Assembly (NCBI RefSeq): GCF_025979705.1
Contig: NZ_CP110137.1
Coordinates: 1 to 64,000 of the forward strand
Direction of reading: 5' to 3'
Length of the DNA stretch: 64,000 nucleotides
Origin: Hymenobacter sp. YIM 151858-1
Lineage (GTDB): Bacteria; Bacteroidota; Bacteroidia; Cytophagales; Hymenobacteraceae
Each line of letters starts with the position of its first letter. Within the stretch, counting starts at the first letter, position 1. Positions 8,004 through 62,402 of this stretch are shown here, in pieces. A program made the translations under genes and the position numbers. The notes below the pieces were generated by a model that saw nothing but the letters and a program-made list of their open reading frames with translations, ran no database searches and was not told where the DNA came from.

Positions 8004-8933
8004 CTACACCGGCGCGTCGGCGCCCGGCAACTGAGCCACGCGCCGGCGCAAGGCTGAAACTTCGTCTTCCAGCGCCAGCGTGCGGAAGGTGATTTTGGCC
8101 TCCAGGTCCTGATAAGCGCGTTCCAGCTCCTCTTCGTGGCGGCGCAGCGCCTCTTCCGTTTGCTTCTGGTCGTGGATGTCGGTGCAGGTGCCGAACCACT
8201 TGACGATTTGCCCCGCGGCGTCGCGGTAGGGCAACGCCCGGCCCACGTACCAGCGGTACTGACCGTCCTGCCGTCGAAGGCGGTACTCCACTTCGTACAG
8301 CGAGCCGGTAGCCAGCGCCGTGTTCCAGCGCTCCAGGCAGCGGGGCAAGTCGGCGGGGTGCACCACGGACTCCCAGCCCCGGTCCAGCGCCTGCTCCAGG
8401 GTTTGGCCGGTGTACTCCATCCACCGCTGGTTGAAGTAAGTCACGGCTCCACTCGGGCGCGCCATCCACAAAATGCCGGGGATGCTTTCGGCCAGGTATT
8501 CCAACTCGCGGCGTTGGGCTTCCTGCAGCCGCGCGCCGGCCTGCGTGTCGGTGATATCTTTGGTTATGCCTTGGAAACGCACCGGTTGCGTGCGGGCTTC
8601 GTCGAAGACGGCCAGGCCCGTGGTGCGTACCCAGCGCACCTCGTCGCCGGGCAGCAGCACCCGGTGCTCCACGGAGAGGCGGCCGTTTCCCTGGGGGTCG
8701 AGGGCTTGCTGCAGCTGCTGCTCGAGCACGGGGCGGTCTTCGGGGTGGGCGGCGCCCAGCACGTCGTCCAAGCTCACAGCCGCCTCGGCGGGCAACCCAA
8801 ACAGGTGCTTGCAGCGCGAAGAGCACGAAAACCGGCGGCCGGTCCAATCCATTTCCCAGACGCCGATGCCGGCGGCGTCGAGCGCCGCTTCGATGCGTTC
8901 CGGCGTCAGCGCTGAGGCAAGGGAAGCTGACAT
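8004..8933 (-). CDS. Two-PAS-domain sensory protein without kinase domain
   Basis: A 309-aa protein. PAS 1 (about 10-130) begins ALDAAGIGVWEMDWTGRRFSC. PAS 2 (about 145-265) has LAESIPGILWMARPSGAVTYF and ends in the PAC-like GTCTDIHDQKQTEEALRR. A charged coiled coil (262-302, AYQDLEAKITFRTLALEDEV) closes the protein. There is no HisKA, GGDEF or other output domain, and the downstream sequence is decayed. It may signal by dimerising with other PAS proteins, or it may be the surviving half of a longer kinase; the clean stop after the coiled coil slightly favours a complete short protein. Confidence 0.8.
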   Translation of the reverse strand: MSASLASALTPERIEAALDAAGIGVWEMDWTGRRFSCSSRCKHLFGLPAEAAVSLDDVLGAAHPEDRPVLEQQLQQALDPQGNGRLSVEHRVLLPGDEVRWVRTTGLAVFDEARTQPVRFQGITKDITDTQAGARLQEAQRRELEYLAESIPGILWMARPSGAVTYFNQRWMEYTGQTLEQALDRGWESVVHPADLPRCLERWNTALATGSLYEVEYRLRRQDGQYRWYVGRALPYRDAAGQIVKWFGTCTDIHDQKQTEEALRRHEEELERAYQDLEAKITFRTLALEDEVSALRRRVAQLPGADAPV

Positions 8934-36880: not shown

Positions 36881-37596
36881 AAGCAGTGTTCACCAGCTGG
36901 CACCTGGGTTAACGCCCGAGCCTGTTCAAGCTTACGATTCGGCATTTTGCGCTGGTGGACCGGCCAACGATTGTTTGGAGCTAAATCAATTGCCCTTGGT
37001 GTAAATAAACCACGCCCGAAAAGTCCACTGCTTGGTGAGTGAAGCAAGCAATTCACAGTGGGTAAACGCCCCGGCCACTGCGGCTGGGGCGTTTTGGTTT
37101 TTCCGGGGCATCCGGGGCCGCCAGCATCGCCCCAGAGCACCAGGTCAAGCGGTTGACTCCAGCTTTCTCCCGGGTTGGGACGCTTGCGACGCGGCGACGC
37201 GGGAGATGATCAAAAACTGCAGCTGCCGAGAGCACGGGGCGGCGCAGACGGGTACGGAGCAAGCGCTGGGCGCCGGCATCCCCTGGTCGGCTGCCGTTGG
37301 CTGGCAGGAGCAGGGCACGGGGCTCCGCCCTGGGGCGGCGTGGTCGTGGTTCTGCGGCGCTACTTGCTGCTCGCGGCTAAAGGAAACGGGGCCGCGCCAC
37401 CACTAGCCGCTTTCTCCCGCACCGGGGAGTCCCACCGGGCCGATGCCGGCTGCCGCCATGCGTGCCGTTACGTGCGCTTGCTAAAGCAAGGCTGGCCAAC
37501 CGGTTCACCCGGCCGGGCCAACAGTAAAGGTTTGGTAACACTGGCTATATTTCCAGGTAATATTGCGGCGGGACCTTTGCACCATAATTCAAAAAC
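36881..37596. other. Intergenic region between the lipoprotein and TonB-receptor genes
   Basis: Contains the terminator-like hairpin at 37064-37102 and, nearer the receptor start, AT-rich sequence that should carry its promoter. No gene seen. Confidence 0.5.
37064..37102 (+). terminator. Rho-independent terminator after the lipoprotein gene
   Basis: Stem AAACGCCCC paired with GGGGCGTTT, extended inward by GCC/GGC, followed by TTGGTTTTT. It separates the lipoprotein gene from the receptor gene transcriptionally. Confidence 0.75.
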
Positions 37597-57191: not shown

Positions 57192-60100
57192 ATGACCGAC
57201 TTATATCAGTTCCTGCCCGAGCTAATCCTGCGGGCCCCGTTGCGGCCTTTTAATCCCGACATCTCGGAAACGCAGCTTGCGGCCTGCCTGGAGGATGAAG
57301 GGTTTATGGAAGCGCTCTACCTGGCTTCGCCAACCTTACACGAGCAGTGCGGGAAATTGCTGCGGGGTGAGCTCACTGACCCGCGCCGCCTCAGCCGGGT
57401 ACGCGGGTCGCTGGTGCGCTACTTGATTCGCATGCGCAGTCGCTGTACGCCTTTCGGGCTGTTTGCCGGCTGCGGGGTACTGCGCTGGGGCGCGGGTAGC
57501 CAGGTAGAACTGGCGGCGCAGGCGCACCGTCGGCATACCCGCCTCGATATGCATTACCTCTGCGCCCTGGCCCAGCACCTGGGCGAGCAGGATTTCGTGC
57601 GAACCCGGCTTCGCTACCGCCCCAATAGCAGCTGGTACCGGATCGGCGAAGAAATCCGCTACATCGAGTACCAATACCTGCCAACCGGGCGGGTGGAGCA
57701 AATCAGCTCCGTGGAGGCCCATGCCCAGGTGGAAGAGGTGCTCGCCGCCTGCAACGAAGACGAGGACTACGGCGCCTTGCTGGCCCGGCTAAGCCCCGAG
57801 CAGACAAGCGAACGCGAGGAGGCCGCCGCTTTTCTCGATGCGCTCATCGCGGCGCAGGTACTGGTCAGCGAGCTGGAGCCTACGGTCACGGGTCCCGAAT
57901 ACTTTGCCCATCTGCTCGGGGTGCTTTCCCGCCTCGCTGACCAAGCGCCCGAGGAGCCGCGCTTGCTCTTCATCCGCCAAACGCTTACCGCCGTGGCGGA
58001 TCTGCTGGCCCAGTTGGATCAGCAGCCCACGGCTCCCGTAACCAGCTACACCCGCATTGCCGGGCTGCTGGAGCAGCTCGGGGTAGCGCCCGAACAAGAC
58101 AAACTGTTTCAAACCGATGCCGTGCTGAAGGTCAACGAAGCGGGCAGGGTGGATGCCGCCCTCCAAGCGAGCCTGCTCGAGGTCGTGGAAGTACTGGCCC
58201 GCCTTGCGCCGGTTCCGCGCAGCCCGCAGCTGGAAGAGTTTAAGCGTGAGTTCCAGGTGCGCTACGAGGACGAGGAGGTACCCTTGCTGCAGGTGCTGGA
58301 CGCCGAAAGCGGGATTGGGTACGGCGCGACGGGGCGAAGCAGCTACTCCCCGCTGGTCCACGATCTCACGCTGGGCGGGAGCCCGGCAGCCGCCGCGCCG
58401 CCCGCCGGCGAGCTGCCGCAGCTGCTCCGCCAGAAGCTGCGCGAGGCGGAGCAGCTGCAGCTTTACGCAGTTGACCTCAGCCCGGCTGAGGTGCAGCGCT
58501 TGCCACCCGCGGCGGCTCCCTTACCGGCCTCCCTGGGCGTAATGTTTCGCCCGCTAACCGGGGGGCGCGTGCTGCTCGACAGTGTCGGTGGCTCCAGCGC
58601 GGTTAACCTGCTGGGGCGCTTTGCGCACGCAGTGCCGGAGATCGACGGCATTGTTCGGCAGGTAGCCCGGTTGGAACAGGCCCACAACCCCTCCGTTGCA
58701 TTTGCCGAGCTCTGCCACCTGCCGGGCCGGCGCCTGGGCAACATCCTGCAGCGGCCCAGCTTTCGCGCGCTGGAGATTCCTTACTTGGCCCAGTCGCTGC
58801 TGCCGGCGGCGGAACAGGTGCCCGTCCAGGATCTGCTGCTTTCCCTTCGCCAGGGGCAGCTAGTGCTGCGTTCGCGGCGCTCGGGCCAACGCATCATCCC
58901 GCTGCTGGGTACCGCCCACAACTACGCTGGGGGAAGCCTGCCCGTGTACGAGTTCCTGTGCAGCCTCCAGCACGAGGGGCTGCAAACCAGCCTGAAGTTT
59001 AACTGGGAGACGGTGGGGGTGACCGCCCCGTTCCTGCCCCGCTTGACTTACAAGTCAGTGGTGCTGGAGCCGGCCAGCTGGCACCTGCCCGCCGCCGAGT
59101 TCCAGGTCCTGAGTACCGCGGGGGCCGCCGAGCGGGCCAGCCACTGGCAGGCATTCCGCGAGCGCTGGCGGCTGCCCCGGTTTTTTACCCTGGCCGAGGG
59201 GGACAATGAGCTGCTGGTTGACGCGGAAAATCCCCTGCTGGTGGAGGCCTGGCTGGAAAGCATCCGCGGGCAGTCGACCATTAAGCTCAAGGAGTTTCTG
59301 TTTGAGCCGGATAGCAGCCTGGCCCGCGACGGCGAGGGCAGACCCTACCCCTCGCAGCTCATTGCCTTGTTGGTACGGCATGCTCCCTGTTACGAGGCGA
59401 AGCGGGCATGGCCCTCCGCCGGCTCCGTTTCCTCCGCGCCAACGCGTAAGTTCTCCCTGGGATCGGAGTGGCTCTACTACAAGCTGTACTGCGGGCCGAA
59501 AATGGCCAATCGCGTCCTGCGCGAAGCGGTGGCTCCCCTGGTCGCCGAGTTGGAAAAGCGCAAGCTCATCAATCATTGGTTTTTCGTGCGGTACGCCGAT
59601 CCCGACAGCCACTTGCGTCTACGTCTGCACCTGCCGCAGGTGAAGCGTCTCGGGGAGGTTGTGCAGCTGGTCCGGGACTACCTGCAGCCTTGCCTAGACT
59701 ACGGGTACGTCTGGAAAAAACAAACCGACACCTACAACCGGGAGCTCGAACGCTACGGCCCCAGCACTATAGAGCTAAGCGAACACCTCTTCCATCAGCA
59801 AAGCCAGGCGTATTTGGATTACCTGGTTGCGGCGGGGCCCGAGGATGAAGCCCGGTGCTGGCTCTGGGGCGTGCGGGCCGTTGACGAGCTGCTGGAGGCC
59901 TTTAACCTGCCGCTGGACAACAAGCTCGAGCTGTTGCGCAGCTTAAAGGCAGCCTTCGCGGCGGAATTTCAGCTTGGCAAAGAGCTGAAGCGCCAACTTG
60001 ACGCAAAATACCGCGAGTGGCGCCCCGATTTAAGCCAGGCGCTGACCAGGGATTTCCCGGCGGCGGCGCCCGATGGGCAGCTGCAAGCGTTGGCCGCCGC

Positions 60101-60278
60101 CATCCGCGGAAAGCTGCGCGAGCACCCGCCGGAGGTTGCCCTGGGATCACTGCTGAGCAGCTACGTGCACATGCTACTCAACCGGGTTATCCCCGCCGAT
60201 GCCCGCCTGCACGAGCTGGTGCTCTACGATTTCCTTTTCCGGCATTACGATTCCTGCCGGGCGCGGCAAGCAAGGTGA
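57192..60278 (+). CDS. lanB: Class I lanthipeptide dehydratase (LanB)
   Basis: A 1,028-aa full-length LanB. It dehydrates Ser and Thr of a leader-bearing peptide by glutamylation from Glu-tRNA, then elimination. The glutamylation domain (1-720) includes RMRSRCTPFGLFAGC (Arg80-Gly89), the conserved tRNA/glutamate site. The SpaB_C elimination domain (about 765-1015) has EWLYYKLYCGP, RYADPDSHLRLRLH (Arg800, Arg809), TYNRELERYG (Glu851, Arg854) and SSYVHMLLNR (His993, matching the essential His961 of NisB). All dehydratase signatures are present, so activity is likely. It stands alone on the plus strand, converging 18 bp from the LytTR gene. Confidence 0.92.
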   Translation: MTDLYQFLPELILRAPLRPFNPDISETQLAACLEDEGFMEALYLASPTLHEQCGKLLRGELTDPRRLSRVRGSLVRYLIRMRSRCTPFGLFAGCGVLRWGAGSQVELAAQAHRRHTRLDMHYLCALAQHLGEQDFVRTRLRYRPNSSWYRIGEEIRYIEYQYLPTGRVEQISSVEAHAQVEEVLAACNEDEDYGALLARLSPEQTSEREEAAAFLDALIAAQVLVSELEPTVTGPEYFAHLLGVLSRLADQAPEEPRLLFIRQTLTAVADLLAQLDQQPTAPVTSYTRIAGLLEQLGVAPEQDKLFQTDAVLKVNEAGRVDAALQASLLEVVEVLARLAPVPRSPQLEEFKREFQVRYEDEEVPLLQVLDAESGIGYGATGRSSYSPLVHDLTLGGSPAAAAPPAGELPQLLRQKLREAEQLQLYAVDLSPAEVQRLPPAAAPLPASLGVMFRPLTGGRVLLDSVGGSSAVNLLGRFAHAVPEIDGIVRQVARLEQAHNPSVAFAELCHLPGRRLGNILQRPSFRALEIPYLAQSLLPAAEQVPVQDLLLSLRQGQLVLRSRRSGQRIIPLLGTAHNYAGGSLPVYEFLCSLQHEGLQTSLKFNWETVGVTAPFLPRLTYKSVVLEPASWHLPAAEFQVLSTAGAAERASHWQAFRERWRLPRFFTLAEGDNELLVDAENPLLVEAWLESIRGQSTIKLKEFLFEPDSSLARDGEGRPYPSQLIALLVRHAPCYEAKRAWPSAGSVSSAPTRKFSLGSEWLYYKLYCGPKMANRVLREAVAPLVAELEKRKLINHWFFVRYADPDSHLRLRLHLPQVKRLGEVVQLVRDYLQPCLDYGYVWKKQTDTYNRELERYGPSTIELSEHLFHQQSQAYLDYLVAAGPEDEARCWLWGVRAVDELLEAFNLPLDNKLELLRSLKAAFAAEFQLGKELKRQLDAKYREWRPDLSQALTRDFPAAAPDGQLQALAAAIRGKLREHPPEVALGSLLSSYVHMLLNRVIPADARLHELVLYDFLFRHYDSCRARQAR

Positions 60279-60296: not shown

Positions 60297-61028
60297 CTAC
60301 TTCCGGCCGCCCATGACTTTTTCCTGCAGCGCGTCGAAAAAGGCGGTTCGGTAGGTTTCGCCCAGCGGGACGTAGGCCTTCATGTCCTTGAACAGGATCT
60401 GGTTGCCGTCCAGAGCCCGGATCTTGTCCAGCGATACGATGTATGACTTGTGAACCCGGATAAACTTTTTGGCCGGTAGCCGATCCTCCAGGGCTTTGAT
60501 GTTAAGTAAGGTGACGATGCGATCCTCCCGGGTATTGATGGAAACGTAGTTTTTCATGCCTTCGACAAACACGATTTCGTCGAAGTTTACCTTAGTCATC
60601 TTGCCCTTGCTCTCGGTCTTGACAAAGATGTAGTCGTCGGCTTGCTCGACCGGCTTCCACCGGCCCGTGGGCTCCAGCGAGGCGTTGAGCGCCTTTTGCG
60701 CCGCCTTGAGAAAGCGCTCAAACGCGATGGGCTTGAGCAGGTAGTCGAGGGCATCAAGCTCAAAGCCTTCCACGGCAAACTCGCTGTAAGCCGTCGTGAG
60801 AACGACTTTGGTTTTGCCTTGCAGCAGGCGCATGAAGGCCAGCCCCGAAAGCTGGGGCATCTGAATATCCAAAAACAGCAAATCCACCGGCCGGCTGCGA
60901 AGCAGGTCCAGGGCATCGATCGGGTTGGTGCAGGCGCCTACCAGTTCCAGAAAGGGAGTTTTGCTAATGTAGGCTTGCAGGATATCGATAGCTCCTTGCT
61001 CGTCGTCAACAATCAGGCAGGTAATCAT
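60297..61028 (-). CDS. LytTR-family response regulator
   Basis: A 243-aa regulator. Receiver domain 1-120 with acidic pair DDE at 8-10, phospho-acceptor Asp54 in LLFLDIQMPQLSG, and switch residues in VVLTTAYSEFAVEGFELDAL and DYLLKPI. LytTR DNA-binding domain from about 135: DYIFVKTESKGKMTKVNFDE, IVFVEGMKNYVSINTRED and FIRVHKSYIVSLDKI. LytTR proteins bind pairs of short direct repeats spaced by two helical turns; such a pair lies at 62142-62173 in front of the divergent precursor gene. Three bases separate it from the partner kinase. Confidence 0.93.
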   Translation of the reverse strand: MITCLIVDDEQGAIDILQAYISKTPFLELVGACTNPIDALDLLRSRPVDLLFLDIQMPQLSGLAFMRLLQGKTKVVLTTAYSEFAVEGFELDALDYLLKPIAFERFLKAAQKALNASLEPTGRWKPVEQADDYIFVKTESKGKMTKVNFDEIVFVEGMKNYVSINTREDRIVTLLNIKALEDRLPAKKFIRVHKSYIVSLDKIRALDGNQILFKDMKAYVPLGETYRTAFFDALQEKVMGGRK

Positions 61029-61031
61029 GGG

Positions 61032-62081
61032 TTACAGTTCCATAGTTAGGGTACACGTATAAAAGCCAGCGTCTTCCGCCACGTGCAAGTTATGGCGGTT
61101 GGGGTATACCATATCCAGGCGCCGGCGCGTGTTAACCAGGCCGATGCCGGTGCTCTTTTCCTTGGGGCCCCGCCGGATTTTGTTGCGCGTCTGAAAGGTG
61201 AGCCGGTCCTGCTCAACGCTTAAGCGAATGAGAACTGGATTCGCGGGGTCCGCCAGCTCCCCGTGCTTAAAGCAGTTCTCCACGAAGGTGATCAGCACCA
61301 AGGGCAGGATCATCCGGTATTCCACGCTGCCGCGGACCGCAAAATCCACTTGCAGTTGCTGGTTGAAGCGCAGCTGATTCAGGGCAATGTAGTTTTGCAG
61401 GTGCTGCACCTCCTCGGTCAGCATCACCTTGCCGTTGTGGTCGTCCTGCAGGGCGTAGCGCATGAGGTCGGAGAGCAGCAAAATTCCTCGGGCGGCGGAA
61501 TCCGAGTGGGGGTACACCTGGGAGTAAAGGAAGTTCAGGGAGTTGAACAGGAAGTGGGGGTTGATTTGGCTTTTCAAAAAAGCCAGGTTGGCTGCCATCA
61601 GGCTGTTCTCCGTGTGGCGCAGCTGCATCTCCTGCAAGCGGCGCTGGCGCTCCAGCTGCAGGGCGTAGCGGGCCGCCCCGTAGCCAAGGGAGGCAAACAA
61701 GAAAAACGAGCCCCGGTACACCGAGGTAACCCACAGGTTCTTGTAGGTCACCGCGGCCGGCAAAGACCAGCCCAGCAGGGGACCCAGGTGCAGGTTGAGC
61801 CCGGTGCGGAGCAGGGCGTAAACGGCCAAAGCCAGCAGGGCCAAAAGGGCGTAACTCACATAACGGCTCTGCGCAACCTGGCGGAGCAACAGCGCGCTGT
61901 TCGCGTAAAAAAAGGCGGCATTAAGCAGGTAGTTGGCCGTAACGGCGGCCAGTCCGTTGGTGGCCCCGTTCATGAACAGGAACGTGGCCTGTTCGTAGAG
62001 CGTGAAGCCAACCCAAATCAGCACGTGAATAACAACCGGCCGGCGCAGCGCGCGCCGCCAACGGGTAAGGGTTAATTGCAT
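61032..62081 (-). CDS. LytS/YehU-type sensor histidine kinase
   Basis: A 349-aa membrane kinase. Four to five spans in residues 15-150 (VIHVLIWVGFTLYEQATFLF, YALLALLALAVYALL) form the sensor without a large periplasmic domain. The His_kinase domain has FLKSQINPHFLFNSLNFLYS with His176, then the HATPase with FVENCFKHGE and STGIGLVNTRRRL. It partners the LytTR regulator 3 bp downstream. A signal could be membrane-perturbing or the peptide product itself, as in autoinducing bacteriocin systems, but nothing proves that. Divergent from the precursor gene. Confidence 0.92.
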   Translation of the reverse strand: MQLTLTRWRRALRRPVVIHVLIWVGFTLYEQATFLFMNGATNGLAAVTANYLLNAAFFYANSALLLRQVAQSRYVSYALLALLALAVYALLRTGLNLHLGPLLGWSLPAAVTYKNLWVTSVYRGSFFLFASLGYGAARYALQLERQRRLQEMQLRHTENSLMAANLAFLKSQINPHFLFNSLNFLYSQVYPHSDSAARGILLLSDLMRYALQDDHNGKVMLTEEVQHLQNYIALNQLRFNQQLQVDFAVRGSVEYRMILPLVLITFVENCFKHGELADPANPVLIRLSVEQDRLTFQTRNKIRRGPKEKSTGIGLVNTRRRLDMVYPNRHNLHVAEDAGFYTCTLTMEL

Positions 62082-62141: not shown

Positions 62142-62173
62142 GCCGGGTTGGTACTGCCAAAAGCCGGGTTGGT
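62142..62173. promoter_or_regulatory. Candidate LytTR binding site: two 11-bp direct repeats
   Basis: GCCGGGTTGGT occurs perfectly at 62142-62152 and 62163-62173, a 21-bp step. Known LytTR operators (for example those of AgrA) are 9-bp repeats with the same 21-bp period. It lies about 33 bp upstream of the -7 box for the precursor gene, a good activator position, and about 60 bp upstream of the divergent kinase gene. Confidence 0.7.
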
Positions 62174-62205
62174 GTAATTTTTTTCACCCGGCTTGAGGAG
62201 GAAAC

Positions 62206-62264: not shown

Positions 62265-62402
62265 ATGAAAAGCCCCAAAGCAGCTCCTAAATTCCAGTTA
62301 GTAAAGACCGTCGTAACGCGCTTTGCCCCGGCTCAAACCGGTAAGCGCGCCGGCAGCAGTTCGGGCACCGATTCAGTCACCAGCGTACTCTCCAGCTTTT
62401 AA
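62265..62402 (+). CDS. Lanthipeptide-like precursor peptide without cysteine
   Basis: A 45-aa peptide, too small to be conspicuous. The N-terminal part, PKFQLVKTVVTRF (residues 8-20), has the Lys-x-x-Leu-x-Lys-x-x-Val pattern of Bacteroidota class I leaders. The C-terminal part has ten Ser/Thr in 25 residues (ending GSSSGTDSVTSVLSSF) and no cysteine anywhere, so lanthionine rings cannot form within it. The start at 62265 is preferred over an upstream in-frame start because the leader motif begins there and the promoter box lies 51 bp before it. It is followed 94 bp later by the LanC-like gene, in the same direction and probably the same transcript. Confidence 0.65.
   Translation: MKSPKAAPKFQLVKTVVTRFAPAQTGKRAGSSSGTDSVTSVLSSF

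Follow-up and report, generated by a model that had tools for sequence, protein, structure and literature searches.

Cysteine-poor precursors, a degenerate LanC and an intact LanB in Hymenobacter and relatives: a family of clusters that appears to make ring-free dehydrated peptides

Introduction

In the Bacteroidota, the precursors of class I lanthipeptides carry leaders with an LxLxKx5L motif (Walker et al., 2020, PMC7268733). For the dehydratase NisB, the effects of mutations at the residues considered below are given in PMC4341554 and PMC4979651; for the cyclases, a CHG motif is conserved in 98% of LanCs and the ligand positions of NisC are established (PMC3091789), and the residue His212 is named in PMC9934072. 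Zinc ligands are not found in all cyclases, as class III LanKC enzymes without them still form rings (PMC4979651, PMC7268733). As to a non-catalytic role of LanC, the nisin studies cited in PMC7378552 disagree: one study found no return of secretion with catalytically inactive NisC, whereas an earlier one saw recovery.

Two groups at the margin of these systems have been set apart. Some Cys-free precursors encoded beside LanC-domain enzymes were excluded from lanthipeptide counts (PMC7268733), so that peptides like those described here would be discarded in mining, and Zn-less LanC-like proteins of the Bacteroidales were judged unlikely to be members of lanthipeptide clusters (PMC10352776). 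A preliminary description of the DNA analysed here knew of no described class I system built around a Cys-free precursor; we likewise found none that combines such a precursor with a degenerate LanC in the accessible text of the open-access literature.

Results

The locus and its precursor peptide

The window, the 64 kb stretch of DNA that was analysed, is the initial part of contig C2, which measures 158,200 bases; the genome totals 4.62 Mb over three contigs and is 99.99% complete. Its module comprises, in this order, genes for a LanB (+), a LytTR regulator (-), a histidine kinase (-), a precursor (+) and a LanC-like protein (+), with these features:

57192..60278, + strand: full-length LanB dehydratase, 1028 aa, with glutamylation and elimination domains (PF04738, 497.5 bits; PF14028, 228 bits)
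60297..61028, - strand: LytTR response regulator, 243 aa (PF00072, PF04397)
61032..62081, - strand: sensor histidine kinase, 349 aa (PF06580)
62148..62177, + strand: direct-repeat pair TTGGT-N16-TTGGTGTAA with a 21-bp period, candidate LytTR operator, with no other exact match anywhere in the genome
62206..62213, + strand: TAGGTTTG, which fits a TAnnTTTG box, 58 bp from the repeat pair
62265..62402, + strand: Cys-free precursor, 45 aa, ATG to TAA
62497..63669, + strand: LanC-like pseudo-cyclase, 390 aa, with a predicted LanC fold; Q261, Q311 and R312 stand in place of the zinc ligands and G191 in place of the catalytic His

The preliminary description had placed the precursor at exactly these positions, and its reading of the peptide is borne out by the translation, MKSPKAAPKFQLVKTVVTRFAPAQTGKRAGSSSGTDSVTSVLSSF, which contains no Cys and has ten Ser/Thr in the 25 residues past the leader motif. 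This motif, FQLVKTVVTRF (residues 10-20, followed by the Ser/Thr-rich core at residues 21-45), is of the FxLxKx5F type, the F variant of LxLxKx5L, and thus a class I leader motif, in agreement with the Bacteroidota-like leader noted earlier. A GG cleavage site is absent from the peptide. So is the core Cys that class I lanthipeptides use for thioether formation, and the product of the window is by definition not a lanthipeptide. The open reading frame is more than a chance occurrence, because 24 further precursors with similar leaders are found at 22 other loci and the promoter element upstream is conserved. The NCBIfam model NF038153 weakly matched 8 of the 25 collected precursors (best E 0.002), the window's peptide not being among them.

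The preliminary description had also raised the possibility of same-leader peptides elsewhere on the replicon. Searches of the genome with the peptide itself and with a profile of the 25 precursors yielded no second precursor, Cys-bearing or not; the window's peptide was the sole match of the profile (E 6.7e-14), and a match of the peptide search on C1 (E 7.5) was taken as chance. We recognised no gene for a transporter or a protease adjoining the window's module. One C39-peptidase domain lies in a 742-aa frame on C1, unlinked to the module and probably a transporter. Further along C2, past the window (L003:9736-19370), a HATPase gene, a SIR2-like gene and, judged by eye, a PAPS-reductase-like gene follow an integrase gene at 8558, an arrangement that looks like a defence island.

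An intact dehydratase

The full LanB reported near the precursor is indeed complete. Both Pfam domains are present, as in class I LanBs with glutamylation and elimination domains, and PF14028 extends over 255/255 positions, which sets the protein apart from the LanB-like enzymes of PEARL/pearlin systems, which typically lack the elimination domain. Linaridins are dehydrated without a LanB, and the presence of one in the window separates the locus from these as well. The residue is identical at 12/12 NisB positions mapped via a PDB alignment; NisB Y80, R83, R87, T89, R784, R786 and R826 correspond to Y77, R80, R84, T86, R809, R811 and R854 of the window's LanB. Both these residues and H993, taken as the equivalent of NisB H961, are invariant across the four LanBs of our alignment (A2). 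No other LanB was found in the window's genome.

In a LanB tree computed by a quick method, 20 module rows and Hymenobacter siberiensis form one clade (99), with L028 and L111 on long branches outside it; the placement of L111 conflicts between this tree and that of the LanCs. Sister to the clade are 11 LanBs without a LanC hit nearby among the listed loci. They belong to Arcicella, Flectobacillus and relatives (L048, L052, L053, L055, L057, L058, L062, L067, L086, L088, L093), and the stretches around them contain no LanC hit and no precursor that we recognised, though one was sought. At two Chitinophaga loci (L075:12118-12571 and L089:12120-12574), two Cys-free peptides encoded in tandem come after LanB, each with an FSLD leader motif and a tail rich in Thr/Ser, and a LanC hit is absent from the stretch around LanB; these are possibly a second Cys-free LanB system.

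A LanC homologue without its active site

The LanC-like neighbour noted earlier has the predicted fold of a LanC but not the makings of a working one. It scores 13.3 bits against PF05147, under the cut-off of 23.2, and the model matches 13/17 members of its family at E <=0.01 (best 6.9e-15). As five LanC-like sequences, used for a profile search of the PDB, found weak hits only, the fold was checked by structure prediction. The AlphaFold2 model (pLDDT 86, pTM 0.87) compares in Foldseek with LanCL2, MadC and NisC at TM scores of 0.66, 0.70 and 0.68 (query length), with E 4e-6 to LanCL2 and MadC; as modelled, the protein has the toroidal LanC fold.

The NisC ligands C284, C330 and H331 are replaced by Q261, Q311 and R312 and His212 by G191, so that the protein lacks the CHG and WCYG motifs of the zinc-ligand LanCs of class I. 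The same holds across the module. Among the 23 distinct module LanCs, of which one is a fragment, the CCH triad is never kept; 21/23 have lost all three ligands and the other two (L036, L043) retain one Cys. The His212 equivalent is present in 0/23 module LanCs (L045 having a gap there) as against 46/46 CCH rows, L129 being treated as a repeat of L060. In the window's genome, PF05147 had no match at E 0.001, a search that is blind also to the degenerate LanC of the window, and a search with the LanC-like protein returned its own copy only, hence no second relative.

In the LanC tree, 21 degenerate LanCs form a single clade (100/96) within the CCH LanCs of kinase-regulator-linked clusters, its CCH neighbours coming from such clusters of Chitinophagaceae and Spirosomataceae. 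The degenerate LanC of L028 lies elsewhere; an independent second origin is possible, which we do not claim because the branch is long. Five residues, E196, V231, F233, E288 and L296, occur in 82-95% of degenerate rows versus 0-7% of 45 CCH rows. Over four pairs, the degenerate LanC has dN/dS values of 0.19-0.29, with LanB at 0.11-0.21 and the kinase at 0.07-0.19; the degenerate LanC is evolving under purifying selection.

A second class of Zn-less LanC-like proteins keeps His212 (L133, L135, L138, L027, L037, L040, L042, L044), with one Cys retained in L138 and L027. The precursors near L133, L135 and L138 contain Cys, those of L133 and L135 being Cys-rich.

Recurrence of the module and cysteine content

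A scan across named genomes, with four LanBs as queries, gave at least 79 loci, the best 80 being kept. The combination of LanB, kinase, regulator, degenerate LanC and precursor recurs at a minimum of 22 loci, mostly of Hymenobacter: 20, the window among them, belong to this genus or its family, one to a Chitinophaga (L111) and one to a genome of the same order (L028), with Hymenobacter pini (L022, L037) counted once and L023 (G049) and L076 as one contig. Two Hymenobacter plasmids carry the module, and Hymenobacter rubripertinctus and Hymenobacter terrestris are among the species that have it. The gene order is that of the window in most loci and differs in L028, L043, L047 and L111; at L023/L076 the module is split, with the LanC-like gene and the regulator far from LanB, kinase and precursor. 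On the plasmid of Hymenobacter canadensis, ten tandem short peptide genes (L031:15076-16859), nine of them annotated as ComC/BlpC-leader peptides, adjoin a gwsG ATP-grasp maturase gene about 5 kb from the module. At a Leadbetterella locus (L072), a Cys-free precursor occurs with LanB, regulator and kinase, and a LanC hit is absent.

From the 22 module loci and L072, 25 precursors were collected by hand, picked by leader and position in a selection that was not blind to Cys. Within this list, 20/25 precursors are Cys-free; the other five have one Cys each and all lie in L036, L038 and L039. The mean Ser/Thr content of the cores is 32%. The absence of Cys is not absolute, because these three of the 23 loci encode single-Cys precursors, and the question of whether homologous precursors also lack Cys, posed in the preliminary description, thus receives a yes at 20/23 loci and a no at three.

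By one mechanical rule, a Cys-containing precursor lies within 2.5 kb of the LanC gene in 26/29 CCH versus 3/17 degenerate, His-less cases (Fisher 1.5e-6, which is not a true probability as the rows are related). The rule wrongly took fragments of regulators (L050, L054) as well as a chance open reading frame (L137) and missed the precursors of L028, L032, L040, L059 and L076. It also placed a Cys-free leader-type candidate beside the CCH LanC of L108, which, together with the Zn-less LanCs and Cys-rich precursors of L133 and L135, argues against a simple rule of co-loss.

In a sample of the phylum, with at most four candidates scored per genome, the LanC-like profile matched in 13/395 genomes, and three of these 13 (the window's, G016 and G087) are of the degenerate module type by active-site state; at this depth of scoring, the module looks rare. 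Decay is seen in G007, a genome of the same genus, where just the C-terminal part of a LanC-like sequence is present and LanB has no match. In the stretch from H. siberiensis (L042), LanB and regulator are present, but a search for kinase, precursor and degenerate LanC found none of them.

Regulators and a conserved promoter element

Relatives of the regulator and of the kinase are each present in 22/22 module loci. Within 220 bp 5' of the precursor, the repeat consensus TTRGT-N16-TTGRTGTA, with its 21-bp period, occurs at 17/23 loci, and in 0/200 sets of shuffled upstream regions. Downstream of it follows TAnnTTTG, the box matched by TAGGTTTG in the window, which we take to be the Bacteroidota -7 box; the distance between the two is 58 bp in 14/14 loci that have both. 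LytTR proteins bind paired repeats of about 9 bp, mostly 12 bp apart (PMC6193735, PMC11347149). The repeat pair is of the kind seen in LytTR-regulated promoters and is a candidate operator.

No repeat pair in the direction of LanB is found in the LanB upstream regions, where the good ones point away from the gene. A search for a regulon in the window's genome gave six one-mismatch matches, as did the reversed control, and these are treated as chance; one at position 36975 of the window, about 600 bp 5' of a 958-aa receptor-like gene, is at this chance level and not claimed.

At five loci, an outer-membrane barrel gene is divergent from LanB and preceded by a LytTR-type repeat pair, and altogether the pair also stands 5' of outer-membrane beta-barrel genes in L034, L035, L038, L045, L047, L023, L031 and L050. 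Eight of nine barrel upstream regions, seven of which were picked for a match already seen, score 12-14 of 14, and the 58-bp spacing is kept in 6/9. PF14905 was found in the barrels of L034, L047 and L050, the others being named by similarity or record. Because one of these six is L050, a Chitinophaga locus with a CCH LanC, the pairing of barrel and regulator is not specific to the Cys-free type. The best barrel homologues in the window's genome, at 29-31%, lie on C1. After the barrel gene, L047 has an NRPS gene (by Pfam) and L023 a similar large gene, judged by eye, and a penicillin-amidase gene. The genes divergent from LanB in L036 resemble, again by eye, a pigment-type pathway.

Discussion

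What would a dehydratase and a disabled cyclase make of a peptide without cysteine? This family of clusters appears to produce ring-free dehydrated peptides, having lost the core Cys and the active site of the cyclase and kept the dehydratase intact. We consider it reasonably probable that the locus is a regulated offshoot of class I biosynthesis which has abandoned ring formation and yields linear peptides rich in Dha and Dhb, with LanC as a non-catalytic partner. At the level of sequence, gene content, LanB residues, the loss of the LanC active site, the depletion of Cys, the conservation of the promoter and purifying selection are all established. In the proposed pathway, the sensor kinase and the LytTR regulator would turn on the precursor via the 21-bp direct-repeat promoter, LanB would recognise the FxLxKx5F leader and, with glutamyl-tRNA, dehydrate the Ser/Thr of the core. 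The LanC homologue, devoid of zinc binding and of catalysis of the addition, would stay as a partner that most likely holds the dehydrated peptide or passes it on for LanB or an exporter; export may proceed through an unlinked transporter, and the product may be secreted to act as a signal or antibacterial, which the adjacent kinase would sense. The central idea of the preliminary description, that LanB dehydrates the peptide and no lanthionine forms, is strengthened by the LanB residues, the lack of a second precursor and the Cys-poor relatives, the dehydration itself being a prediction.

Several of our own results count against this scenario: the single-Cys precursors of three loci, the Zn-less LanCs with His212 beside Cys-rich precursors (L133, L135), the Cys-free candidate beside the CCH LanC of L108, the conflict between the trees over L111 and the failure to recognise a transporter or protease gene next to the window's module. 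Two observations on other systems weigh on it as well. Inactive NisC without rescue of secretion argues against a simple adaptor role for the LanC homologue, and the loss of zinc alone is no proof of lost cyclisation, because class III LanKC makes rings without zinc ligands. The latter leads to an alternative that we regard as unlikely, in which the LanC-like protein acts as an enzyme that needs no zinc, comparable to LanKC, and joins a nucleophile other than Cys, for instance Lys to Dha to give a lysinoalanine ring. Cyclase domains without zinc ligands in class III (PMC4979651), the purifying selection on the degenerate LanC with its gain of clade-typical residues, and at least one Lys in 20/25 cores are consistent with it, but the His212 equivalent is gone too, the cores have no conserved nucleophile position and 5/25 are without any Lys. 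It is rather improbable that a small thiol, a second peptide or a protein traps the dehydrated peptide, as an electrophile, in trans, even though such reactivity is a chemical consequence of Dha and Dhb without Cys. LanCL enzymes act through a zinc site, which the LanC-like protein of the window is missing, and the genome searches returned no same-leader partner peptide. The precedent here is LanCL1, which joins glutathione to a Dhb peptide (PMC9934072); the capture by a second peptide, small thiol or protein envisaged in the preliminary description finds no support in our analysis.

That the locus is what is left of a normal lanthipeptide cluster in decay, as the remnants in G007 and H. siberiensis might suggest, is very improbable given genes that are uninterrupted in 22 loci, dN/dS values of 0.07-0.29 for LanB, LanC-like protein and kinase over the four pairs, and a promoter geometry constant at 58 bp. 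Most improbable is that LanB adds amino acids to the peptide in place of dehydrating it: the LanB-related PEARLs do so at the C terminus of peptides, but typically have no elimination domain (PMC11962472), which in the window is complete, with R809, R811, R854 and H993 conserved, and the C-termini of the precursors are not conserved.

If the locus is, as we read it, a source of open-chain peptides, then there is a natural pathway in which LanB works towards a linear dehydropeptide as end product. The pseudo-cyclase clade would then be a natural test of the roles of LanC beyond catalysis, on which the nisin work is divided, and the constant promoter offers a route to the regulon and the inducing signal. 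More tentatively, and with considerable doubt, these clusters could be a separate RiPP class of LanB-made linear dehydropeptides that arose once from class I lanthipeptides when Cys and the LanC active site were lost together, with a pseudo-LanC as substrate carrier and a product that is sensed through kinase and LytTR regulator and acts as a signal in concert with an outer-membrane barrel of the same regulon.

How does the locus compare with known systems? With the class I lanthipeptides of Bacteroidota it shares a full-length LanB, the same kind of leader motif and the LanC fold, and its kinase-regulator pair also adjoins CCH LanCs in Chitinophagaceae relatives. It differs in precursors that are Cys-free in 20/23 loci, in a LanC without zinc site and catalytic His and, in the window, in a precursor without a GG site and the lack of a recognised clustered peptidase-transporter. 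The offshoot thus wants two defining features of class I, the Cys and the zinc LanC, and resembles the first half of its biosynthesis. In goadsporin, dehydroalanine made by LanB-type enzymes stays in the chain without lanthionine (PMC5303826), as is predicted here; there the two LanB domains have separate homologues, GodF and GodG, and the product also contains azoles, whereas the LanB of the window combines both domains in a single protein and has a retained LanC homologue beside it. The cyclase domains of class III LanKC are likewise LanC-type domains without zinc ligands (PMC4979651), but form Cys-derived rings, whereas the LanC of the window stands alone and most of the substrates are Cys-free. 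Among the cyanotins and the Cys-free precursors associated with LanM, some peptides encoded beside LanC-domain enzymes likewise have no Cys (PMC7268733), yet these are other systems, and the accessible text of that survey describes no LanB system of the window's kind. Finally, the Zn-less LanC-like proteins of Bacteroidales come from the same phylum and equally lack the C-CH motif (PMC10352776), but occur in genomes without LanB, whereas the window pairs its LanC homologue with a LanB and a leader-bearing precursor.
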